Notes under the pieces: model-generated
What the model was told of the DNA's origin: nothing
What the model saw: only the letters and a program-made list of their open reading frames with translations
The model's database searches: none
Program-made: the position numbers and the translations under genes
In this document: one piece after another, positions 13,537-42,311 of the stretch
Layout of the letters: every line of letters starts with the position of its first letter
Numbering within the stretch: the first letter of the stretch is position 1
DNA from: Methanocorpusculum sp.
GTDB taxonomy: Archaea; Halobacteriota; Methanomicrobia; Methanomicrobiales; Methanocorpusculaceae
Length of the DNA stretch: 64,000 nt
Assembly: GCA_017399555.1 (NCBI GenBank)
Contig: JAFQBW010000063.1
Span: 1-64,000 of the forward strand
Direction: 5' to 3'

Positions 13537-14229
13537 TTATTTCCGCTTAACCCCGGTCATATTCGCCCCGCCAAGTTCAGCCCCTTCCAGATTTGCGCCG
13601 CGTAAATCCGCCATCCACAAATCCGCACTTTCCAGATGGGCATACGATAAATCCGCATCCCGCAGATTCACCTGCCGCAAATCCGCTCCTTCCAGATGCG
13701 CATACGACAGATTCGCTCCCGACAAATCAAGCCCGGCAAGAGACACCTCTTCTAAGTACGCACCGTAAAGCCGCACATTACTGTTCTCCTCGCAAAGCTT
13801 TGCCGCATACCACGGATTCCAGACATCTGATCCCATCTTCAAAAGCTCAAGCTGAACCGCATCAAACTTTACCTTTCCTGCCGGCTCGAAATGCGCCGAA
13901 TCAGGGTTTGCACCTTCCAGATTTGCGCCGCCCAAGTATGCCCGCCAGAGATTTGCGGAAAAGAGATTTGCACCTTCCAGATTCGCATCCTTCAGATACG
14001 AGTAGGAAAGGTCTGCCCCCTGCAGGGACGCAAACCGCAGGTCTGCACCTTCCAGATTCAGATAGGATAAATCCGCGCCGTCTAAATGAGCCCCGAAAAC
14101 ATTTGTCCCCCGCAGATGCTGTGTCTCCTTCAAATGTGCCGCATACCAGCGGTTCCATGCGGCAACATCCGCCGCCTTCACCGAAGAGACCAGCAGTTCA
14201 TACTGCTTTGCATCAAGCCGGGACTTCAT
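13537..14229 (-). CDS. Pentapeptide-repeat protein, internally duplicated
   Basis: This 230-residue protein is built from two similar halves. Each starts with a short helical segment (AADVAAWNRWYAAHLKE and GSDVWNPWYAAKLCE) and continues into A(D/N)LxxA-type pentapeptide repeats such as ANLEGANLFSANL and ADLRQVNLRDADL. Such repeats fold as a right-handed quadrilateral beta-helix; some members mimic DNA, but no function can be assigned here. The start at 14229 is supported by a TATA box about 27 nt upstream. An in-frame ATG much further up lies inside the permease gene. Confidence 0.88.
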   Translation of the reverse strand: MKSRLDAKQYELLVSSVKAADVAAWNRWYAAHLKETQHLRGTNVFGAHLDGADLSYLNLEGADLRFASLQGADLSYSYLKDANLEGANLFSANLWRAYLGGANLEGANPDSAHFEPAGKVKFDAVQLELLKMGSDVWNPWYAAKLCEENSNVRLYGAYLEEVSLAGLDLSGANLSYAHLEGADLRQVNLRDADLSYAHLESADLWMADLRGANLEGAELGGANMTGVKRK

Positions 14230-14251
14230 ATCAATACATTGTCCCGCAGGA

Positions 14252-14260
14252 TTATAAATA
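14252..14260 (-). promoter_or_regulatory. TATA box of the pentapeptide-repeat gene
   Basis: On the minus strand TATTTATAA is centred about 27 nt upstream of the ATG at 14229, predicting a leaderless transcript. It lies in the short gap between this gene and the permease. Confidence 0.55.
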
Positions 14261-14267
14261 TGGATGG

Positions 14268-15773
14268 TTACTGCAGAAGATAGCGCTTCGACTCTCCGCC
14301 CGCAGAGACCTGAAGTGCTGCACGGTCGCGGGAAAGGGTAAGGGTTACCGCGCCCTCGGCATCTGCCCGCTCCTCGGTTTCTTTGGCAATTGCTGAGACC
14401 TGCAGGCGGTTGAGCGTCCAAAGCTTTCCGCACTCCTGCACGAAATCATAGACCGCGGTACGTTCCAGAACCGCGGATTTGCGGTGCGGGATGCCGATTT
14501 TAAACAGCATGCCAAGAAGGACCGCAGTAATTGAACCTGCGGTCAGCGGGGAAGCGAAGAACAGCGCCGCCCATGCCGGAAGGTCCGCGTACAGGAAGGG
14601 GCAGAATCCGGAGGAGACGCCGATTAGAATCGGCAGAAGAACCGCAAACGTCCGGCGGGTATCCAGCATCCGCGAGGACAGGCTCTGGATGCCGCCAATC
14701 ATAACAAAGACAATCGCGTACAGCAGGACTGCGCCTAAGACCGGGCGCGGCAGGATGCGGAATACCCAGGCAACAACCGGCATGAAGCCGAAGAGGATTA
14801 AGAGAAGCCCAACCCCCACACCGATTTTCCGCGAGGCAATTCCGGTGCTTACCACAAGGCCCGCATCCGAAGATGATGTTCCAACACCGATTCCGCCGAG
14901 TGCGCCGGTTAGAGACAGACCTGCTCCTTCCAGCAGGAGGCCGCGGGATAAGGTGTTTCGGTCGCCTTTTCCGGTGTAGGAGGAAAGCAGCGTCAGGTTT
15001 CCGGCGGTCTTCATGATGATGCAGACAACACCGATTAAAAACGGCACAAGAAGGGCGGCATCAAAGGTGTAGCCAAAGAGAAATGCCGGCGTTGGAATCG
15101 CGAAAAGCGCAAGGTCTGCCGCCTCGGCGAGGACGTCGCCGGAAAAGACGCCGAGGATAACCGCGGTCACGCATCCAAGGGCCATTCCAAGGATGGTGGA
15201 GTAGAATTTGCAGAAGCGCGGCTTTGCGATGCTGAAAAGGATGATGGAAAGCAGCGTTACCGCGCCGACGACCGCGGATGCCGGGTCGAGCGGACTGCCG
15301 TTCGTGCTTCCGAAAAACAGCGGAAAGGCTGTCGGAATTATGGCGATTCCAAGCAGGAAGAGGACAACGCCTGTTACCTCCTCCGGGAATATCCGGCGGA
15401 AGAAGCGGGTAAAGCGGCTGACGAGCATCTCAAGAAGCCCGGAGAGGATAAGCATGCCTGATAGAAGCGGGATGCCGCCAGCTCCCGCGGCGAGAACGGA
15501 GGCTGGAAGATAGGAGGAATTCGGGATAATCGGCATGGGAAATCCCGTCCCGAACCGCTTTGAGGACAGCAGAAGGGTTGCGAATCCGCAGCCGATTAAG
15601 GTCAGGCTGATGAGGTTTGCCGTCATGTCCGCCGTCCCGCAGACCGCAGCACTGATGATTACCGGGTAGGTCATATAGACAGCAATCGCAAACAGGTGCT
15701 GGATTACCGAGAGCAGAAGGGTTCCTTTCGGAATCGCATCATCAGTATTGTACACCGGCGGTTCATCAGCCAT
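14268..15773 (-). CDS. NCS2-family nucleobase (uracil/xanthine) permease with C-terminal extension
   Basis: This 501-residue membrane transporter matches the nucleobase:cation symporter-2 family. Motifs include PMPIIPNSSYLP and the helix-10 region GGIGVGTSSSDAGLVVSTGIA. About 12-14 hydrophobic segments are present. After the last membrane helix a soluble tail of about 70 residues (VYDFVQECGKLWTLNRLQVS onward) extends beyond the usual family end. The start at 15773 is chosen because the upstream in-frame sequence is poorly conserved-looking. The substrate is not readable from sequence. Confidence 0.85.
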   Translation of the reverse strand: MADEPPVYNTDDAIPKGTLLLSVIQHLFAIAVYMTYPVIISAAVCGTADMTANLISLTLIGCGFATLLLSSKRFGTGFPMPIIPNSSYLPASVLAAGAGGIPLLSGMLILSGLLEMLVSRFTRFFRRIFPEEVTGVVLFLLGIAIIPTAFPLFFGSTNGSPLDPASAVVGAVTLLSIILFSIAKPRFCKFYSTILGMALGCVTAVILGVFSGDVLAEAADLALFAIPTPAFLFGYTFDAALLVPFLIGVVCIIMKTAGNLTLLSSYTGKGDRNTLSRGLLLEGAGLSLTGALGGIGVGTSSSDAGLVVSTGIASRKIGVGVGLLLILFGFMPVVAWVFRILPRPVLGAVLLYAIVFVMIGGIQSLSSRMLDTRRTFAVLLPILIGVSSGFCPFLYADLPAWAALFFASPLTAGSITAVLLGMLFKIGIPHRKSAVLERTAVYDFVQECGKLWTLNRLQVSAIAKETEERADAEGAVTLTLSRDRAALQVSAGGESKRYLLQ

Positions 15774-32970: not shown

Positions 32971-33606
32971 ATGTGGATATGCGGCATAGATGAGGCAGGA
33001 AAAGGCCCGGTTTTAGGACCGATGGTCGCGGCAGGAGTTCTGGTTTCATCTGACGATGATTTATCATCCCTCGGCATCAAAGACTCAAAACAGCTCTCGG
33101 CAAAAAAACGCGAGGCCGTGTTTGCCGAAATCTGCGCATCATACAAGACCGCGGTTGTCATCAAAACCCCGGCAGAGATTGATGCGCGGGACTGTACCAT
33201 GAACCAGTTCACCGTTCTCTGCCATGCAGAAGTTCTCCGCTCTCTCCATCCGGCGCGGGTATATCTGGATGCCTGCGATGTAAATGCCGAGCGGTTCGGC
33301 ACAAATGTGCTTTCGGCGTCCGGTGTCTCGGCGGAAGTCATCTCCGAACACAAAGCCGATGCCCGCTACGCAGTAGTCGGCGCGGCAAGTATTGTCGCGA
33401 AGGTGACGCGGGATAGAATCATTGAGGAGCTGAAAGCAGAGTTCGGCGAGATTGGAAGCGGATATCCGTCAGATGCCAAAACCGTTGCCTTCCTGACTGA
33501 ATATATTACAGAGCACGGCGCACCGCCGTCGTGCGCACGGAAAAGCTGGCAGACGGTGAGTGATATTCTCTCCAAATCTGCACAGAAAAATCTGTTTGAC
33601 TTCTAA
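32971..33606 (+). CDS. rnhB: Ribonuclease HII
   Basis: This 211-residue enzyme removes RNA from RNA-DNA hybrids and single ribonucleotides from DNA. The catalytic start is CGIDEAGKGPVLGPMV. Further acidic residues appear in YLDACDVNAERFG, and EHKADARYAVVGAASIVAKV is the family signature. The ATG at 32971 is preceded by AGGAG. The stop lies about 5 nt before repeat element D. Confidence 0.94.
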   Translation: MWICGIDEAGKGPVLGPMVAAGVLVSSDDDLSSLGIKDSKQLSAKKREAVFAEICASYKTAVVIKTPAEIDARDCTMNQFTVLCHAEVLRSLHPARVYLDACDVNAERFGTNVLSASGVSAEVISEHKADARYAVVGAASIVAKVTRDRIIEELKAEFGEIGSGYPSDAKTVAFLTEYITEHGAPPSCARKSWQTVSDILSKSAQKNLFDF

Positions 33607-33610
33607 AAAC

Positions 33611-33846
33611 CGCGAATCGCAATGCGATAGCATTGCGGAACAAGCGCAGGTGCGATGAGCACCGAAGCGACAACGTATCTGCAAAACGTAATATCCTGAT
33701 TCGTGTAAATTCGCGTCTTTGTTCTCTTGCAGTGAGTTGGCAAGAAACACGCGAATCTCCGCGAATCACCCATAAACCATTGTCCTATAGGCTGTCGAAC
33801 GCTTCGCTCATCGCTCGCGTTCTGTTCTGCAACGCTCTCGCGTTGC
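33611..33846. repeat. Long nested inverted repeat, element D (GC-rich stem outside, GATT module inside)
   Basis: The outer arms 33619-33674 and 33794-33846 pair imperfectly (GCAATGCGATAGCATTGC and GGTGCGATGAGCACCGAAGC on the left). The inner arms 33698-33716 and 33749-33767 (GATTCGTGTAAATTCGCGT) match at 16 of 19 positions. A further short stem CTTGC/GCAAG closes the centre. Same topology as C and E. It lies between convergent RNase HII and disulfide reductase genes, starting within about 5 nt of the RNase stop. Confidence 0.9.
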
Positions 33847-33880
33847 TTTCTATGTTTTGAAAAAAAGAGTTTGTAAGTAA

Positions 33881-35071
33881 TTATTTCTTCAGATATGCGT
33901 ATGCGGAAAGCAGCGCCTTCACACCCTCACCGACAGACGAGGCAATCTGTTTTGCCTTAATCGAGGTGGAATCTCCTGCGGCAAAGAATCCCGGAACATT
34001 GGTCTCGCAGTTCTCGTTGACGATAATCTCCTTCTCCGCGTTCATCTCAACCAGTCCCTCGAACATCATCGTGTTCGGGTTCAGACCGATTCCAAGGAAG
34101 ACACCTTCGACCGGAATCTTCTCGATGCCGGACTTGAAGAGCTTCGTAATGCCGCCGCCGAGTTTTTTCAGCGCGATTCCTTCCACAAACTGACCGCCGT
34201 AAATCTCCTCGATTTCATATCCGGTGTGGAAGACAACATTACTCTTGGTCTTTAAGCGGTTTAAGAGAATCTCATCTCCGCGAACCTTGCTTCTGACAAT
34301 TACATGCACCTCGGAGGCGATGTCTGCAAGTTCGAGCGCCATATCAAGGCCCGTGTTTCCGCCGCCGATAACCGCAACCGATTTTCCTTTATAGAGCGGC
34401 CCGTCGCAGGTGGTACAGACCGCAACACCTTTTCCGAAGAAATCAGTCTCTCCCTTCGCACCGGAGAACCGCGGGATTCTGCCTGTCGCGGCGATAACTG
34501 CTTTTGCGGTTACCTTGTGCCCGTTGAGCGTCTCGATTTCGAAAACCCCGCCCTTTCTGACGATGGATGTTCCAACATCCTCTAAGAACTCAACGCCCGT
34601 GGACTTTGCATGCTCGGCAAGCTTGCCCATTAAGACATCCCCCGGGACATCCGGGATTCCCGGATAGTTCTCGACGGTCTTGCTCTGGTTCACCATACCG
34701 CCGATAGCTCCGCCGATAACAAGCGTGTCAAGCTCCTTTCTTCCTGCATAGAGTGCCGCCGGAAGACCGGCAGCGCCTGCGCCGATGATAACCAGCTCAT
34801 GGTCTGCAGTAATCGGGGCTTCTGCTGCCGGCTCGTCGCCTAAGAGCAGAATCTGGAGCTTCATTAAATCATCGCCGATAACAATTTCTTTTCCGTCAAT
34901 GATAATAACCGGCACTCCGCGCTGACCGGAAATCTCAATCATCTTTTTTGCGTTTGCACTGTCGGATACGTCATAATTCGTATATTCGATATTGTGTTTT
35001 GCGAAGAATGACTTCACGTTTTTACAGTGCGGACAGTCCGGAAGAGAATAAATCTCAACAGTATGTGGCAT
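33881..35071 (-). CDS. Glutaredoxin-thioredoxin reductase fusion
   Basis: This 396-residue protein joins an N-terminal glutaredoxin-like domain (IYSLPDCPHCKNVKSFF, active CPHC; GVPVIIID cis-Pro loop) to a complete thioredoxin reductase. The reductase has an FAD site VIIGAGAAGLPAALYAG, a redox pair in VAVCTTCDGPLY, an NAD(P) site VIGGGNTGLDMALELA and a C-terminal FFAAGD. The fused glutaredoxin could be its own electron acceptor. The host cofactor (NADPH or F420H2) cannot be told from sequence. Single gene with its own start at 35071. Confidence 0.9.
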   Translation of the reverse strand: MPHTVEIYSLPDCPHCKNVKSFFAKHNIEYTNYDVSDSANAKKMIEISGQRGVPVIIIDGKEIVIGDDLMKLQILLLGDEPAAEAPITADHELVIIGAGAAGLPAALYAGRKELDTLVIGGAIGGMVNQSKTVENYPGIPDVPGDVLMGKLAEHAKSTGVEFLEDVGTSIVRKGGVFEIETLNGHKVTAKAVIAATGRIPRFSGAKGETDFFGKGVAVCTTCDGPLYKGKSVAVIGGGNTGLDMALELADIASEVHVIVRSKVRGDEILLNRLKTKSNVVFHTGYEIEEIYGGQFVEGIALKKLGGGITKLFKSGIEKIPVEGVFLGIGLNPNTMMFEGLVEMNAEKEIIVNENCETNVPGFFAAGDSTSIKAKQIASSVGEGVKALLSAYAYLKK

Positions 35072-35125
35072 ACTATACCTATCGGCTTTTGAACCTATTA
35101 AGCTGTCGGATTCAGGAAAAAAAGG

Positions 35126-35683
35126 TTAGTTGTATTTTTTGATTTTGATATCAGAAGTAATCGACTCGTCAATCTCGAGCGGGTTTAAATTCTCGATTTT
35201 TCTGATACCGATTCCATGCACCGAAAGGCTTCCGGCAATGGCATACTTCTTGACGACCATACCGACCGCTTCGATATTGTCTCCGACCTTAATCTCCTCA
35301 TCGAGCGGCATGGAACGGAAAACAATCAGAGCACCCGAACCGTCGAAGATCTGGTACTTTGGTCTGCCCATGAACTTACCCTTGACACTCTGGACAACTC
35401 CCTCGACTCTGACCGCCTTTCCCTGCATGTTGAGGTTGACATTCTTGATTCTCATCGGCTTTGCGCCTGCTTCATACTCGGGAAGGAGCTTGATGTACTG
35501 TCCGCCGAGACTGTAACTGCTCACAGCCGGGATGATTAAGAGACACAGACAAAGCGGCAGTCCCCAGTAGATGTAGCTGAAGTCGTTGGTTAAGAAGAAC
35601 GACCAGATAAACAGCAGAACAAAGAAGACAAATACGATGATTACCGCAGGAGATACATGGATTTTCACGCCTTTGATTTTCAT
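35126..35683 (-). CDS. Membrane protein with two N-terminal helices and an OB-fold domain
   Basis: This 185-residue protein has two transmembrane helices in the first 60 residues (AVIIVFVFFVLLFIWSFFL, and LCLCLLIIPAV). A soluble domain follows (VRVEGVVQSVKGKFMGRPKY then QIFDGSGALIVF) that looks like an OB-fold of the tRNA-anticodon/NfeD kind. The function is unknown. The ATG at 35683 is about 34 nt downstream of a strong TATA box. Confidence 0.75.
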   Translation of the reverse strand: MKIKGVKIHVSPAVIIVFVFFVLLFIWSFFLTNDFSYIYWGLPLCLCLLIIPAVSSYSLGGQYIKLLPEYEAGAKPMRIKNVNLNMQGKAVRVEGVVQSVKGKFMGRPKYQIFDGSGALIVFRSMPLDEEIKVGDNIEAVGMVVKKYAIAGSLSVHGIGIRKIENLNPLEIDESITSDIKIKKYN

Positions 35684-35712
35684 AATTCTCTTAATCTATC
35701 AAATGATTCCGA

Positions 35713-35722
35713 TTATATAAAT
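35713..35722 (-). promoter_or_regulatory. TATA box of the OB-fold membrane protein gene
   Basis: On the minus strand ATTTATATAA lies about 35 nt upstream of the ATG at 35683. Confidence 0.6.
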
Positions 35723-35757
35723 AGTTACTTCTTTTACGGCTCTACTTATTTAATTCA

Positions 35758-35993
35758 AGCAGCGCGATAATGCTGCGTTAGCAGCGGAGGAGCGATAAGC
35801 GACGGAGCGACTACACAAAATACCAGTCTCAATTATTTGATTCGTGTGGATTCGCGTGTTCTTTTCTTATAGCCGCGGTTTTGAAAATATGGACACGCGA
35901 ATCTCCGCAAATCAATAATAAACCGTTATCTCATGTGCAGTCACTCCGGTGCTCATCGCACCTTCGCTTGTTACGCGATGCTTTCGCATCGCT
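35758..35993. repeat. Long nested inverted repeat, element E (GC-rich stem outside, GATT module inside)
   Basis: The outer arms 35758-35816 and 35935-35993 pair imperfectly; the right arm reads CTCCGGTGCTCATCGCACC in the middle. The inner arms 35839-35858 and 35894-35913 carry GATTCGTGTGGATTCGCGTG and its near complement. The right end stops 3 nt before the UPF0146 stop codon. Same topology as C and D. Confidence 0.9.
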
Positions 35994-35996
35994 ATT

Positions 35997-36398
35997 TTAT
36001 GGCTGTGACAGCCTTTTCACGTACCTATGCAGCATCACGCCATCCGCATCGATTCTCTCTCCGCCGTTCTGGTACAGCTCGAATCCTAAGTGATACACAA
36101 TCAAATCGCATCCGACCCGTTTTGCAAGAGCAATCAGCGCGGGCACGATTTCCACCCCGGGACGGATGGCGTAGATAACATCCGCATTTTCATAGAGCGA
36201 AAAGTCCGGTTCGACACAGTCGTCGACTACCGCCGGCACATCGGTGTTGTAGGTGTGCACATCCGTGCAGAGCACCGGAATCCCTGCATCCAGCAGAATC
36301 TTTGCGGCAACTGTCTTTCCGCCGAATCCCACCTCCACCGCAGATGTATAGTGGTCTCTGATATAATTTCCAACAGCAGTTTCGATATGGTACATCAT
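35997..36398 (-). CDS. UPF0146 family protein
   Basis: This 133-residue protein has a truncated Rossmann-like start, AVEVGFGGKTVAAKILLDAG, and VLCTDVHTYN, resembling a small SAM-methyltransferase fold. It matches the archaeal UPF0146 family of unknown function. Two adjacent ATGs (36398 and 36395) are possible. It is divergent from archaemetzincin with only 54 nt between, so the two may share a control region. Confidence 0.85.
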   Translation of the reverse strand: MMYHIETAVGNYIRDHYTSAVEVGFGGKTVAAKILLDAGIPVLCTDVHTYNTDVPAVVDDCVEPDFSLYENADVIYAIRPGVEIVPALIALAKRVGCDLIVYHLGFELYQNGGERIDADGVMLHRYVKRLSQP

Positions 36399-36452
36399 GC
36401 AAACTCGTTAAGGTACATTTATGTCCCTTTGCAGAGAAAATATCTATCGATT

Positions 36453-37058
36453 ATGGGGGTACATATTTTCTGGGACTCGCGTGTCCCAATCGGACTCTCG
36501 CGTCCGGTCACTGAAGAACTTTCCGCCGTCCTTGGAGCACCGGTTTCCCGGATAGACAACGGCATCTTCCCCCTCGAAGGATACGACCCTGCACGGTGTC
36601 AGTACGATGCGGTAAAAATTTTAACCAAACTCGATATGTTCCGCAGACGGCGTCCTGACCTCTTCAAACCGCAGGACATGGATGCGGACTTCTTCAACCG
36701 CTACAACCATATTTATGAGAAAGTCCTGCTGATAACGCCGGGAGACCTGTTTGCCCCAAAGACCAGTTTCGTCTACGGTCTGGCGCACTTAAAGCTCGGC
36801 GTTGCGGTTGTTTCCACCTACCGCCTGACAAACGAATTCTACGGAAGACACCCAGACGACAACGCCTTAATCAACCGGATGGTCACCGAAGGCGCTCATG
36901 AAATCGGCCACCTCTACGGCCTCGAGCACTGCGAGAATCCCGCCTGCATCATGTACTGCCCGAACAACTTAGACGACCTCGACCGCAAACGCAAATACTT
37001 CTGCGGAAAGTGCCGGCTCACGCTTGAGTCCCGTATCAGAGGAGGGTTTGAGTATTGA
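36453..37058 (+). CDS. amzA: Archaemetzincin zinc metalloprotease
   Basis: This 201-residue protein has the archaemetzincin active site HEIGHLYGLEH, followed by the family cysteines in CENPACIM and the later CGKC. These give one catalytic zinc and one structural zinc. Substrates of archaemetzincins are poorly defined. The ATG at 36453 gives family length. The gene overlaps the solo cas1-like gene by 4 nt, so both are probably made from one transcript. That pairing is unusual and has no known meaning. Confidence 0.92.
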   Translation: MGVHIFWDSRVPIGLSRPVTEELSAVLGAPVSRIDNGIFPLEGYDPARCQYDAVKILTKLDMFRRRRPDLFKPQDMDADFFNRYNHIYEKVLLITPGDLFAPKTSFVYGLAHLKLGVAVVSTYRLTNEFYGRHPDDNALINRMVTEGAHEIGHLYGLEHCENPACIMYCPNNLDDLDRKRKYFCGKCRLTLESRIRGGFEY

Positions 37059-37972
37059 TTCCCTGGGTTACGGTCTGGGGATATTCCGCTGACATCAGTA
37101 TCCGCGGGCAGACGCTGTTTGTCCGGGAGAAGGGCATGCGGGAAGCGGCGCGCTATCCGCTCGATACGGTCTCGCATCTCCTGATTGCCGGAGATAATAT
37201 TCTGCACACTGCGGTCATCTCGCAGTGCGCCAAACGAAACATCCCGATTTCTTTCTTCGATATCCACGGAAAGCCGGAGGGTTCGCTCTTCTGCAGAGAG
37301 CCGCACCTTTCTGCGGCGCAGGATGCTGTCCCGAAGCATGCCTTCTCCCTCGCGGCGGCAGAGGCGGCGGCGGATTCCCGTATGCGGTTTCTGCATGAGC
37401 TTGCGGAGTCTCACGAGGCACTGTTCTATCAGGGCGAGTTTGATATCCTCGCCCATGCGCGCTCGGAGTTCGAGTATCTGATTACCCTGCCGGAGCTGTC
37501 CCGCGGCTATGCGCTGACGAAGAACATGTATTATGAGATTCTCTCGCGTGTTGTCCCAAAGAGCCTCGGCTACGTCCGCCGCGTGGAAGGCGCCGCCCCC
37601 GACCCGGTAAATGTCCTCTTCTCGCGGGGATATGCGGTTCTCTATGCGACGGTTTCTGCCGCCTGTGCCGGCGCCGGCCTTGACCTGAACAAAGGCTCGC
37701 TCTACGACAAACCGGGAGCCTGCGTCCTTGAGATTATGGAGCCAGCTTTAGTCCCGCTGGTGGACAAAGCCGTCATCAAAACCGCATCATCAGGACTTCT
37801 CAACTCCTTTGCCCGCTCCGCTTCGCGCTGCATCATCCCGGAAGAGGCAGCTGCATTCTTCGCAGACGAACTCTCGCACTCGCTTGACCGAAAAATCATC
37901 GAGGAAAACGTCTGTGCCTATGCAAATGCCGTAGAGGAAGGGGCGGTTGTTTCCTATCACTATCCGGCGTGA
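37055..37972 (+). CDS. Solo Cas1-like protein with altered catalytic residues
   Basis: This 305-residue protein follows the Cas1 layout. It has an N-terminal beta domain (VSHLLIAGDNILHTAVISQC and NIPISFFDIHGKPEGSL) and a helical domain with PDPVNVLFSRGYAVLYA, GLDLNKGSLY and LEIMEPALVPLVD. By eye, the usual catalytic Glu aligns with Tyr152, the His of GFLH with Tyr217 in GSLY, and the Asp of DLMEP with Glu226. Metal-dependent integrase activity is therefore doubtful. The start is TTG at 37055 with GGAGGG at 37041-37046. No cas2, CRISPR array, DNA polymerase or terminal repeats are nearby. Solo Cas1 lineages, including casposases, are known. Confidence 0.85.
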   Translation: MIPWVTVWGYSADISIRGQTLFVREKGMREAARYPLDTVSHLLIAGDNILHTAVISQCAKRNIPISFFDIHGKPEGSLFCREPHLSAAQDAVPKHAFSLAAAEAAADSRMRFLHELAESHEALFYQGEFDILAHARSEFEYLITLPELSRGYALTKNMYYEILSRVVPKSLGYVRRVEGAAPDPVNVLFSRGYAVLYATVSAACAGAGLDLNKGSLYDKPGACVLEIMEPALVPLVDKAVIKTASSGLLNSFARSASRCIIPEEAAAFFADELSHSLDRKIIEENVCAYANAVEEGAVVSYHYPA

Positions 37973-37982
37973 GTGTAAAAAA

Positions 37983-38037
37983 CGCAGATGTACGCTCCTG
38001 GACACCTGCGAAGAATAAAATAAAAAAAGTTTTTTTT
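37983..38037. terminator. Bidirectional terminator between solo cas1 and tyrS
   Basis: CGCAGATGT and ACACCTGCG form a nearly complete 9-bp stem at 37983-38010. A seven-A run (38022-38028) and an eight-T run (38030-38037) follow, so both convergent genes can terminate here. Confidence 0.6.
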
Positions 38038-38050
38038 GAATCTTATCGAT

Positions 38051-39010
38051 TCAGGCTCTGCCCTTATAGCTCTGCACGTATGCGTATGCGTCGGCTAACA
38101 GCTCGATTAACGCATCACCGCAGGCATTCTTTAAGTCCATCGGGTGAACCTTTCCTGCACCGTACGACTCTGCAAGCTCTGCGTAGCTGTGGAACTCTAA
38201 ATCTCCGCCGAACTTTTCCGGTCTGCGGATAGCCACGGTATCCATTCTCGGGAAGATATTGTACTGGAAGATCTGCATAATCGGGTTGCCCTCAATCTCC
38301 GGCGGGCAGAAGGCCTTCTTCATCTTCTTCTTAATCTCCTCCGGAGAGTCTGCAACAGAGACCACATTTCCTTTGGAAGAGGACATCTTCTCACCGTCGA
38401 GACCGTTGACAATCGGCGTGTGGATACATACCGGCGGCTTGTATCCTAAGGACGGCAGGTGCTCACGGGCAAGCATGTGAATCTTTCTCTGGTCAATTCC
38501 GCCGACTGCAGCGTCAACGCCCAAGGTCGGAATGTCGACGACCTGCATAACCGGGTAGACCATCTGGGAAACCATCGGGTTGTCCATGGCGCGGCCAACC
38601 TCATCCATACTGCGGGTGGCACGGTTTAAGGTAATCTCCTGACAGAGGGTTAACACCTCGGTCTGGTACTTTGGCGTCAGCTGAACATCCGTTCCTAAAA
38701 CAAACTCTGCTCCCTTCAGACCGACTGCCTCGATACATGCCTTGTTATAGTCTGCGAGCTCTTTAATCTGCTCGAAGGTTCCTTTTCTGTTCAGATATGC
38801 GTGCAGGTTTGCGATTAAGACCACTACGTCAAACCCTGCATTTTTCATATCCATCAGTTTATTGATGGTCACAAGGTGACCTAAGTGAATCTCGCCGCTT
38901 GGCTCATAGCCGGTATAGACCCGTTTTGTCGGTTTTGCGAGCAGTGCTCTCAGTTCGTCTTCGGTGACGATCTCAGCCGTATTCCGGGTGACGAGTTCGT
39001 ATGCGTCCAT
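38051..39010 (-). CDS. tyrS: Tyrosyl-tRNA synthetase (archaeal)
   Basis: This 319-residue class I synthetase charges tRNA-Tyr. The HIGH motif is GEIHLGHLVTINKL and the KMSKS motif is DGEKMSSSKGNVV. The tyrosine-binding YTGYEPSG and QVVDIPTLGVDAAVGGIDQR are present. It is of the short archaeal/eukaryal type without the bacterial C-terminal S4 domain. It stands alone on the minus strand, convergent with the solo cas1 gene. Confidence 0.96.
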   Translation of the reverse strand: MDAYELVTRNTAEIVTEDELRALLAKPTKRVYTGYEPSGEIHLGHLVTINKLMDMKNAGFDVVVLIANLHAYLNRKGTFEQIKELADYNKACIEAVGLKGAEFVLGTDVQLTPKYQTEVLTLCQEITLNRATRSMDEVGRAMDNPMVSQMVYPVMQVVDIPTLGVDAAVGGIDQRKIHMLAREHLPSLGYKPPVCIHTPIVNGLDGEKMSSSKGNVVSVADSPEEIKKKMKKAFCPPEIEGNPIMQIFQYNIFPRMDTVAIRRPEKFGGDLEFHSYAELAESYGAGKVHPMDLKNACGDALIELLADAYAYVQSYKGRA

Positions 39011-39055
39011 ATGTCATACACGTTAGCAGTAAAAAGAGATAAGGGTAGTGGTATC

Positions 39056-39673
39056 TTATGCCTCAGGACATTCGGCCTGCCCGTGACGGGTTAAGAAGTA
39101 GAAGATTGGCGTGTCTGCAATGGCGATAAGGACCTTGATAATATACTGGCTGAAAATCATGACCAGCAGGTTCGGGACGACACCCACAAAGGCGATGGTG
39201 ATGAAGATGGTCGTGTCGATTAACTGGCTTACGATGGTGACATTATTTCTCATCCACTTCGGCTTGAAGCGTGCTTTGATTCTGTGGAAGACTTCGACAT
39301 CAAAGCTCTGGGCGACTAAGTACGCAATCATAGAGGCGAAGACGAAGCGTGCGGAGCTGCCGAGTGTTGCCGCAAACGATGTCTGGAACTCTGTCATGTA
39401 GGATGCCGGCGGCAGGAAGACTGCAGCGTAGATTAAGACGAGCGAGAAGAGCTGGACGACGAATCCGAGACGGACGAGGAAGTTTGCCTCTTTCTTTCCC
39501 CAGATTTCACTGACAAGGTCGGTGCAGAGGAAGGTTATCGGGTACGCAACAACGGCCGCCGGAATCTCAATCCATCCAATCTGTACGACTTTGGAGGCGA
39601 TAATGTTGGAGATGACCAGAGCTGTTACGAAAAACGCGGTAACGATGGTGAGGTTTCTGGTAGTTTTATACAA
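39056..39673 (-). CDS. YhhQ-family transporter (queuosine-precursor type, COG1738)
   Basis: This about 205-residue membrane protein has five or six hydrophobic helices and the family stretches TALVISNIIASKVV and PITFLCTDLVSEIWGKKEA. Bacterial relatives import queuosine precursors. In an archaeon the product could be salvaged deazapurines for archaeosine, which is inference. The start is uncertain: I use TTG at 39673. The upstream in-frame ATG (39805) lies inside the divergent trmY gene. Confidence 0.78.
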   Translation of the reverse strand: MYKTTRNLTIVTAFFVTALVISNIIASKVVQIGWIEIPAAVVAYPITFLCTDLVSEIWGKKEANFLVRLGFVVQLFSLVLIYAAVFLPPASYMTEFQTSFAATLGSSARFVFASMIAYLVAQSFDVEVFHRIKARFKPKWMRNNVTIVSQLIDTTIFITIAFVGVVPNLLVMIFSQYIIKVLIAIADTPIFYFLTRHGQAECPEA

Positions 39674-39778
39674 AGTGCTTATAGTATTTGTGCTGAAGGG
39701 ATATGATACCTGCCCCTCTTCTGCTCTTCCCCGGTTGCGCTGGCTTAATGAGTAAGCCCGCCCAATATGTATAGAACT

Positions 39779-40351
39779 ATGCTCAGATTCGCAATCGTCG
39801 GTCACAAAGCAACAACCGAACCCACCTTCTCCTTAAACGACATGCCGGGAGGAGCAGGACGGCTGGACATTCTTTGCCGATGCATCAACAGTTCCTTCTT
39901 CTTAAGTCACGACCTGCGCCGCGACGTCGAATGCTACCTCATCTTACAGGGAGGAGAGCCGACAAAAACACTCCGTTTCGCAGGAGAGACCATCCGCTCC
40001 CTAAACCCTGACGAAAGAAGCGCCGGTGCACTCATCAAAAAAGGTCTCACCAAAGAGGCGACCTCCTCCTTCCAGAAGGCCGCAGACGGCATCCACATCA
40101 GAGCAGGCGGCCTTGCCGAACTCTTGGCGGAAATCCCCTTTGCCGTCCTCGATGAAAACGGAGAAGACATCAGAGAAGCAGAAACTCTCCCTGAAAACTT
40201 CCTCTTATCGGATCACATGAACTTCACTGAAGAAGAGATGGAGTTAATCAAAGATCTGCCGAAGTATTCTGTAGGTCCCCGTGTCCTGCACGCAGACCAC
40301 ACCATTACTGTTCTCTTAAACGAATTCGACCGGAGGGCAACCCATGAGTGA
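39779..40351 (+). CDS. trmY: tRNA pseudouridine(54)-N1-methyltransferase TrmY
   Basis: This 190-residue SPOUT-family enzyme methylates pseudouridine-54 of archaeal tRNA to m1-psi54. It starts MLRFAIVGHKATTEPTF and has PGGAGRLDILCRCINSSFFL, typical of TrmY. The C-terminus is the conserved LNEFDRRATHE region. I choose the ATG at 39779 over one 12 nt earlier. It overlaps pus10, which makes the substrate pseudouridine, by 8 nt, so the two act in sequence on the same nucleotide. Confidence 0.95.
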   Translation: MLRFAIVGHKATTEPTFSLNDMPGGAGRLDILCRCINSSFFLSHDLRRDVECYLILQGGEPTKTLRFAGETIRSLNPDERSAGALIKKGLTKEATSSFQKAADGIHIRAGGLAELLAEIPFAVLDENGEDIREAETLPENFLLSDHMNFTEEEMELIKDLPKYSVGPRVLHADHTITVLLNEFDRRATHE

Positions 40352-41591
40352 AGAGATTACCGGCATCCTGGAAAAAGTCCACCAGATTTTAGAGTACGGC
40401 GACATCTGTGACCACTGCTTAGGGCGCCTTTTTGCCAAGCGCTCCTTCGGACTTACCAACGTCGAGCGCGGCCATGCCCTCCGCGTTGCGCACGCACTCG
40501 CCTACAATATTCCATTCAGTGAGTATGAGGAAGGAACCTGCTGGGTCTGCAACGACCTCTTCCTCCAGATACCGTACTGGGCAGAGAAGGCAGCAGAAGC
40601 CGCAGAAGGCATTGAGTACGAGACCTTTGTTATCGGCACCCGTGTGCCGCCGATGATGACCGAGTCCGAGGAGATGCTCTGGTCCGACCTGCATCTTGAA
40701 AACCCGGAGCCGTTAAAGTCCGAAATGAACCGCGAGGTTGGAAAGGCGGTTGCAGCCCTTACCGGCAAGCGCGGAGATCCGAAAAACCCGGAGCTTACCA
40801 TCGTCTTAAACATCGCAGACGACTGTACTGAGCTGCAGATTGCCTCCCTCTACTTCTACGGCAGATACTTAAAACACGTGCGCGGAATCCCACAGACCCA
40901 CTGGGACTGCCGCGCATGCCGCGGAAAAGGCTGTGAGCTGTGCAACTTCACCGGCAAACAATACCCGACATCTGTAGAGGAAGAGATTGCGAAAGTCCCG
41001 GTTGAAATCTTCCAGGCTGACGCTGGAATCCTGCACGGGGCCGGCAGAGAGGATATTGACGCCCTCTGCTACGGTACGGGAAGACCGTTTGTCATGGAGA
41101 TGGCAAACCCGAAAATCAGAACCGCCGACCTTCGCGAGTTAGAGGAGGCTATCAATAAATCCGCGATGCCTGAGGTGGAAGTGCGCCTGGAATCCTGGTC
41201 AAACAAGAAAACTGTGGAAATGCTTAAATCACACAAAGGGCATAAAACATACAGGATTCTGGTTTCAGTAGATGACCGTATCTCTCTGGAAAACATCCAG
41301 AACGCCGTTTCAAAGCTGAATGGGGCTTGGATTGCCCAGCGCACGCCAAATCGCGTCTCGCACAGGCGTGCGGATTTGGTTCGCAAGCGTCAGGTTATCG
41401 GCATCCAGGTTCTTGGAGTGGAAAACGGACTCTACCGGCTCGAAGTGGTCGGTGACAGCGGTCTCTACATCAAAGAACTTATCTCAGGCGATGAGGGCAG
41501 AACAAGCCCGAGTTTGTCTGAAATCCTCGCCGCACCCGCGAAAGTCACTGAGTTGGACGTAGTGCAGGTCGACGGATTATCAAATACATGA
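40344..41591 (+). CDS. pus10: tRNA pseudouridine synthase Pus10
   Basis: This 415-residue enzyme makes pseudouridine at positions 54 and 55 of archaeal tRNA. The N-terminal zinc/THUMP region has DHCLGRLFAKRSFGLTN. Paired cysteines appear in CWVCND and CRACRGKGCELC. The catalytic domain contains GAGREDIDALCYGTGRPFV with the catalytic Asp. A C-terminal VIGIQVLGVENGLYRLEVVG segment is also present. It is coupled to trmY and followed 12 nt later by L21e. Confidence 0.95.
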   Translation: MSEEITGILEKVHQILEYGDICDHCLGRLFAKRSFGLTNVERGHALRVAHALAYNIPFSEYEEGTCWVCNDLFLQIPYWAEKAAEAAEGIEYETFVIGTRVPPMMTESEEMLWSDLHLENPEPLKSEMNREVGKAVAALTGKRGDPKNPELTIVLNIADDCTELQIASLYFYGRYLKHVRGIPQTHWDCRACRGKGCELCNFTGKQYPTSVEEEIAKVPVEIFQADAGILHGAGREDIDALCYGTGRPFVMEMANPKIRTADLRELEEAINKSAMPEVEVRLESWSNKKTVEMLKSHKGHKTYRILVSVDDRISLENIQNAVSKLNGAWIAQRTPNRVSHRRADLVRKRQVIGIQVLGVENGLYRLEVVGDSGLYIKELISGDEGRTSPSLSEILAAPAKVTELDVVQVDGLSNT

Positions 41592-41603
41592 GAGTGATTA
41601 AAA

Positions 41604-41900
41604 ATGGCAAAACACAACGGAATTAAGAAAAGAACAAGATATAAGCTGCAGAAAACCCTCCGTACCCGCGGAATGCCGAATGTAACCAAATGCATCCAGC
41701 ACTTCGAAGAGGGACAGAAGGTCCACATCGTTCTCGACTCCAGCGTCCAGAAGGGACAGCCGCACCCGAGATTCCACGGCAAGACCGGAACCATCGTTGG
41801 TCAGAGAGGAAGAGCATGGCTCCTTCAGATTAAGGACGGAAAGGCAACCAAGACCGTTATTGCCAGACCGCAGCACCTTACTGCACAGAAATATAATTAA
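41604..41900 (+). CDS. rpl21e: Ribosomal protein L21e
   Basis: This 98-residue large-subunit protein contains NGIKKRTRYKLQKTLRTRG and GQPHPRFHGKTGTIVGQRG, both diagnostic of L21e. It starts the conserved euryarchaeal cluster L21e-rpoF-DUF655-ksgA-hemK. The start codon ATG lies 12 nt after the pus10 stop. Confidence 0.96.
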   Translation: MAKHNGIKKRTRYKLQKTLRTRGMPNVTKCIQHFEEGQKVHIVLDSSVQKGQPHPRFHGKTGTIVGQRGRAWLLQIKDGKATKTVIARPQHLTAQKYN

Positions 41901-41939
41901 ACCCCCAATACTTATTTTACATTACTTTTGGAGGTCGGC

Positions 41940-42311
41940 ATGAAAGTTAAGAAAATTATTCAGGAAGAAATGATGACACTGCCTGAGCTCCGCGAAGAGC
42001 TTATTGCTATCCGCGACCAGAGAGCCGGCGGTCTTGAGGAGACGGAAGGTGCTGTCCGCACACTGTCTTACGAACTGCGTAAAAGCATCGACCATGCCGA
42101 CACCCTTGGTAAATGCAGTGTCGAAACCGCAAAAGCACTCTACGATGAGCTTGCAGGTCTGGAGAAGATTACTCCGACAATTGCCTCCCGCATTGTCAAC
42201 ATCATGCCGGCAAGCCGCGAGGAAATCCGTGCAATCTATGCAAAAGAGCGATTCGCCCTTGTAACCGAGGACGTGGATCAGATCTTAGACATTCTTCGCA
42301 AGTACGAGTGA
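41940..42311 (+). CDS. rpoF: RNA polymerase subunit F (Rpo4/Rpb4-like)
   Basis: This 123-residue protein is the archaeal homologue of eukaryotic Rpb4 and forms the RNA polymerase stalk with subunit E. The pattern TLPELREELIAIRDQ and the C-terminal ITPTIASRIVNIMPASREEI (HRDC-like) are typical. The ATG at 41940 is preceded by GGAGG; an in-frame ATG 12 nt upstream precludes that site. Its place next to L21e is conserved. Confidence 0.92.
   Translation: MKVKKIIQEEMMTLPELREELIAIRDQRAGGLEETEGAVRTLSYELRKSIDHADTLGKCSVETAKALYDELAGLEKITPTIASRIVNIMPASREEIRAIYAKERFALVTEDVDQILDILRKYE

Follow-up and report, generated by a model that had tools for sequence, protein, structure and literature searches.

Cas1 is usually treated as an enzyme of immunity or of transposition. 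What, then, is a Cas1 homologue kept for when no CRISPR array accompanies it and two of its catalytic residues are missing? The question is raised by a gene at positions 37055 to 37972 (forward strand) of the window, by which is meant the whole 64,000-nucleotide stretch of Methanocorpusculum DNA analysed here. The explanation favoured below, and considered probable, is that of a vertically inherited, mostly single-copy Cas1 paralogue that has been a core component of Methanomicrobiales since their common ancestor, has lost the integrase/nuclease chemistry and now serves as a binding scaffold.

The solo cas1 gene and its surroundings

The gene belongs to Cas1-solo group 1 and is referred to here as solo cas1. 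The open reading frame and its translation run from a TTG codon at 37055 to a TGA stop at 37972 without internal stops, giving a protein of 305 amino acids, and the TTG start is backed by relatives that begin with MIPWVTVWGY or LIPWVTVWG at the equivalent position. The protein matches PF01867 (E=6.8e-30, 104.6 bits; cut-off 22.3) and the NCBIfam model TIGR00287 (81.9 bits; cut-off 71.7), and PADLOC profiles also assign it to the Cas1 family; its homology to Cas1 is far above chance level. The AlphaFold2 model (pLDDT 89.9, pTM 0.88) displays an N-terminal β domain and a C-terminal helical domain, both of which match solved Cas1 and casposase structures (6opm, TM 0.82; 7mi9, 0.82; 7mi4, 0.81). 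These profile and structure matches confirm the Cas1-fold signatures and the intact, full-length protein that an earlier note had read from the letters alone. TIGR00287 is the NCBI equivalog “CRISPR-associated endonuclease Cas1,” and the solo protein passes its cut-off although the active site is missing. Systematic misnaming across the order is therefore likely, and Methanomicrobiales genomes can be miscounted as having CRISPR adaptation.

The surroundings are those of a stand-alone gene. A k-mer test, a repeat search and Rfam all fail to find a CRISPR array in the window, and casposon-like terminal inverted repeats are absent within 34500-41000, as the earlier note had stated for both features. 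The ORF list of 33000-42000 contains no recognised cas2 or other cas gene and no polymerase-sized ORF that might represent polB. The k-mer test reports an array for 48 of the 54 canonical cas1 loci and for none of the solo loci examined, many of which include only ~1.5 kb of flank and about fifty 5-8 kb.

Repeats of another kind occur elsewhere in the window, where an ORF on the reverse strand (13537-14433) contains imperfect 48-nt direct repeats at 13879-14061 and its translation displays pentapeptide-like repeats (e.g., ANLEGA, ADLSYA). The genome from which the window derives (G000) further contains a type I-C cas1 that is intact and adjoins a CRISPR array (contig C38:7321-8193).

Residues lost and gained

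CRISPR-type Cas1 carries E, H, D and E at the four catalytic columns in 54/54 aligned sequences, which upholds the earlier hand alignment of these positions. The canonical residues are Glu, His, Asp and Asp/Glu; the window protein has Tyr152, Tyr217, Glu226 and Glu229 (YYEE). Tyr152 (codon 37508-37510, forward strand) and Tyr217 (codon 37703-37705, forward strand) occupy the positions of E141 and H208 in Escherichia coli Cas1. The kept acidic pair, Glu226 to Glu229 (codons 37730-37741, forward strand), corresponds to E. coli D218 and D221, the latter a catalytic acid. It had been claimed that only Glu229 remains; Glu and His are truly lost, but Glu226 is a conservative change from Asp and Glu229 is equivalent to a catalytic acid, so that the real losses are Glu and His.

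The same columns were counted in 118 distinct sequences of the solo family, one of them gapped at the catalytic positions. The Glu column is occupied by H (49), F (20), S (16), E (12) or Y (11), with Q, D, N, A or L in the few others, and the His column by H (47), Y (23), N (18), R (9) or S (9), with F, K, Q, A or T in the rest. Both columns are invariant in canonical Cas1, and within the solo family they rank at the 57th (Glu) and 70th (His) percentile of entropy. Column 226 is D in 112 sequences and E in 5, and column 229 is E in 72, D in 32, N in 11 and A in 2. The quartet reads HHDE or HHDD in 23 sequences and is incomplete in 116/118, the remaining two being the gapped sequence and a single complete one. 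The idea of a Tyr/Tyr/Glu family signature fails, the exact pattern being restricted to the window protein and a 97% relative (2/118); the order-wide pattern is loss of Glu, drift of His and retention of the acidic pair. The sole member with a full E/H/D/E set is L095:7969-8895 (genome G125). Its congeners (L196-L198) retain Glu and have N or K in the His column, and for this reason the quartet of L095 looks like drift inside the solo group. The possibility that another invariant acid (E128, E147 or E161) has taken over from the lost Glu was also considered; the predicted helix spacing does not support it, as E147 is separated from E161 by 14 residues within a single predicted helix.

Outside the active site, the clade has acquired invariants of its own. 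The motif MYYE (residues 158-161, codons 37526-37537, forward strand) is invariant in a 32-row order-wide alignment of the solo clade; Y159 is common to canonical Cas1, and M158, Y160 and E161 are not. Among the invariant residues that set the solo clade apart from canonical Cas1, where their columns are not invariant, are W4, G127, E128, R150, Y160, E161 and R165; E147, M158, H41, R175, R258 and C259 come close to the same pattern. After redundancy removal, six of the nine conserved basic columns of canonical Cas1 prove to be lost in the solo proteins and six other basic columns gained, with R176 kept and also, outside Methanocorpusculum, K232. Net charge per 100 residues is -1.5 in solo proteins and +1.2 in canonical ones (p=1.4e-4). 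The chemistry has thus been remodelled, and with it a large part of the surface presumed to contact DNA.

According to the favoured explanation, a Cas1 paralogue lost its catalytic Glu and His and the integrase/nuclease chemistry, and the order has kept it since its common ancestor. The resulting protein would neither cut nor join DNA, and would act by binding, as a Cas1-like and probably dimeric scaffold. This explanation has to accommodate the complete quartet of L095 and the near-invariance of the acidic pair (D226, E/D229), which may be a sign of residual metal chemistry. A DNA-binding role, as suggested in the earlier note, is possible; however, the loss of six of the nine basic columns and the negative net charge somewhat weaken the simplest form of that idea. 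The likeliest partner, advanced tentatively, would be a structured nucleic acid that takes part in chromosome maintenance, and a protein or small ligand is nearly as likely.

A role without nucleic acids is a serious contender, although it falls short of an even chance. The Cas1 fold would have become a module that binds a protein or a small ligand, in which the new invariant residues (W4, H41, GE127-128, E147, R150, MYYE158-161, R165 and R258-C259) form the functional surface. Such a change is consistent with the disappearance of conserved basic columns and with the polar and acidic residues that have become invariant in this clade specifically. However, the RR..D..N segment (R175/R176, D183, N186) and Y193 are retained, and several of the newly conserved residues are themselves Arg (109, 150, 165, 175 and 258).

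Residual chemistry at an altered metal site is unlikely. It would mean that across much of the order His stands in for Glu, alongside His/Asp/Glu, and that the Tyr/Phe variants of Methanocorpusculum represent further decay. H is indeed the commonest residue in both the Glu (49/118) and the His column (47/118), the acidic pair scarcely varies and the HHDE and HHDD sequences would suit such a site, but the two columns are among the more variable ones and the S, F, N, R and K substitutions leave no constant set of ligands.

Retention and gene order across Methanomicrobiales

Homologues of solo cas1 are present in 217/232 genomes of the order, in 133/135 good genomes and in 38/40 genera, mostly as a single copy, and none of the listed matches contains a stop codon. 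In a tree that includes CRISPR Cas1, four solved Cas1 references and one casposase fragment, all solo sequences form one clade with support 100/100; the exact sister group of this clade is ambiguous in the tree. In the phylum sample, solo members score 321-470 bits and the top outsider, whose E/H/D/E site is intact, scores 162 bits; no solo-like scorer was found outside Methanomicrobiales in this non-exhaustive search, and no relative was found in viral contigs. Solo cas1 is a core gene of Methanomicrobiales, forming a single clade and vertically inherited.

The earlier note had proposed a comparison of dN/dS across species, and the median over 142 pairs of solo genes is 0.14 (0.136 between the window and L003). 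For the same two loci, the adjacent archaemetzincin gene has dN 0 and dS 0.106, a dS similar to that of solo cas1. The solo gene is under purifying selection. The intact gene, the broken site and this selection support the earlier view of a CRISPR-independent Cas1 homologue kept for a purpose other than integration.

Distribution also bears on the possibility of a dead subunit that partners CRISPR Cas1 in hetero-oligomers. Cas1 functions as dimers, and an intact type I-C Cas1 is available beside an array on another contig of the genome to which the window belongs. However, the solo gene is the sole Cas1 match in about 45 good genomes (counted from the per-genome table), including the single-contig genomes G051, G111, G120, G157, G189 and G193, and it never adjoins an array at the loci examined, which makes such a partnership very improbable. 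A functionless decaying copy, with which the free variation of the catalytic residues would agree, is contradicted by the near-universal presence, the lack of stop codons in the listed matches, the dN/dS of about 0.14 and the many invariant residues, and can practically be dismissed.

The archaemetzincin gene (peptidase M54; 36453-37058, forward strand) lies directly upstream of solo cas1, and its TGA stop (37056-37058) overlaps the TTG start (TTGA). Its product scores 164.5 bits against NF033823 (cut-off 145) and has an intact HEXXHXXGXXHC..CXM motif. In Methanocorpusculum, the same gene is directly upstream at every locus checked, frequently with a 4-base overlap, and it is also found upstream of solo cas1 in the sister genus. 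Archaemetzincin is present in 37/37 genomes of the order tested, but in the 31 outside Methanocorpusculaceae it is unlinked, lying about 50 kb or more from the solo gene or on another contig. The protease coupling pointed out in the earlier note is therefore real, as an intact and overlapping gene, but local to Methanocorpusculaceae, and a part for it in an order-wide function was rejected. Solo cas1 of Methanocorpusculum is probably co-translated with archaemetzincin through a local arrangement, the two not constituting one joint system.

Outside this family, the solo gene is mostly alone, between divergent and convergent genes. In a gene order common to several families, it is flanked on one side by genes for a phenylacetate-CoA-ligase-like protein and an ACT-domain protein and on the other by those for acylphosphatase, a protein of about 1185 amino acids and phosphoglucomutase/phosphomannomutase. 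The protein of about 1185 amino acids has no Pfam match (e.g., L112:9440-13018) and is encoded by a convergent neighbour of solo cas1 in 20 of 50 wide loci.

Near-universal retention under purifying selection, in the presence or absence of CRISPR, means that the solo protein very probably has a job other than CRISPR adaptation. A bolder version, which we regard as possible but doubtful, is that a CRISPR-type integrase has turned into an order-wide housekeeping protein that is essential or nearly so, is independent of CRISPR and uses a new ligand or partner site built from the clade invariants. If a broken Cas1 is indeed kept by almost all species of the order, even where CRISPR is absent, domestication would be one more end point of the exchange between mobile elements, immunity and cell machinery.

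Solo cas1 among known Cas1 systems

The solo protein shares its two domains with CRISPR Cas1, of which the Archaeoglobus fulgidus protein (4n06) is the closest solved sequence to the family profile (115.7 bits). By contrast, canonical Cas1 has E/H/D/E in 54/54 sequences and an array nearby in 48/54. Casposases (Cas1-solo group 2; 6opm, TM 0.82) share the Cas1 fold and the lack of a CRISPR array, and are farther from the profile (73.7 bits). Moreover, they possess all four catalytic residues, polB and flanking inverted repeats (PMC4046053), whereas the window protein is YYEE and has no such repeats within 34500-41000. Haloferax volcanii Cas1, which is involved in DNA repair (PMC9051519), is an earlier example of an archaeal Cas1 with a role beyond CRISPR. 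There, the E158A mutant did not show the repair-related processing of flaps (PMC9051519), and the solo protein, which also lacks the catalytic Glu, cannot simply carry out that reaction; any action on DNA would thus have to be by binding.

The closest known system is Cas1-solo group 1, for which Krupovic et al. (2014; PMC4046053) cite Makarova et al. (2013). Krupovic et al. described the group as limited to Methanomicrobiales, without horizontal transfer and with the full active site in no member, and set it aside; a 2023 review repeats this description (PMC9939771). No later functional work on the group was found in the literature searched, most subscription papers being outside its reach. 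The window protein, matched via the published description, is a member of this known but unstudied group, and the feature that the earlier note thought most notable, active-site loss, had already been published as group-wide in 2014 (PMC4046053). The present results agree with that account in the restriction to Methanomicrobiales within the sampled phylum, the stand-alone position, the incomplete active site and the lack of visible horizontal transfer. They differ from it in the larger sample, in the status of a near-universal core gene and in one member of 118 with the full quartet, L095, which by its aligned residues is a small exception to the published claim. What is new is the near-universality, the retention without CRISPR, the pattern of drift, the clade invariants, the gene order, the selection and the family-local link to a protease.
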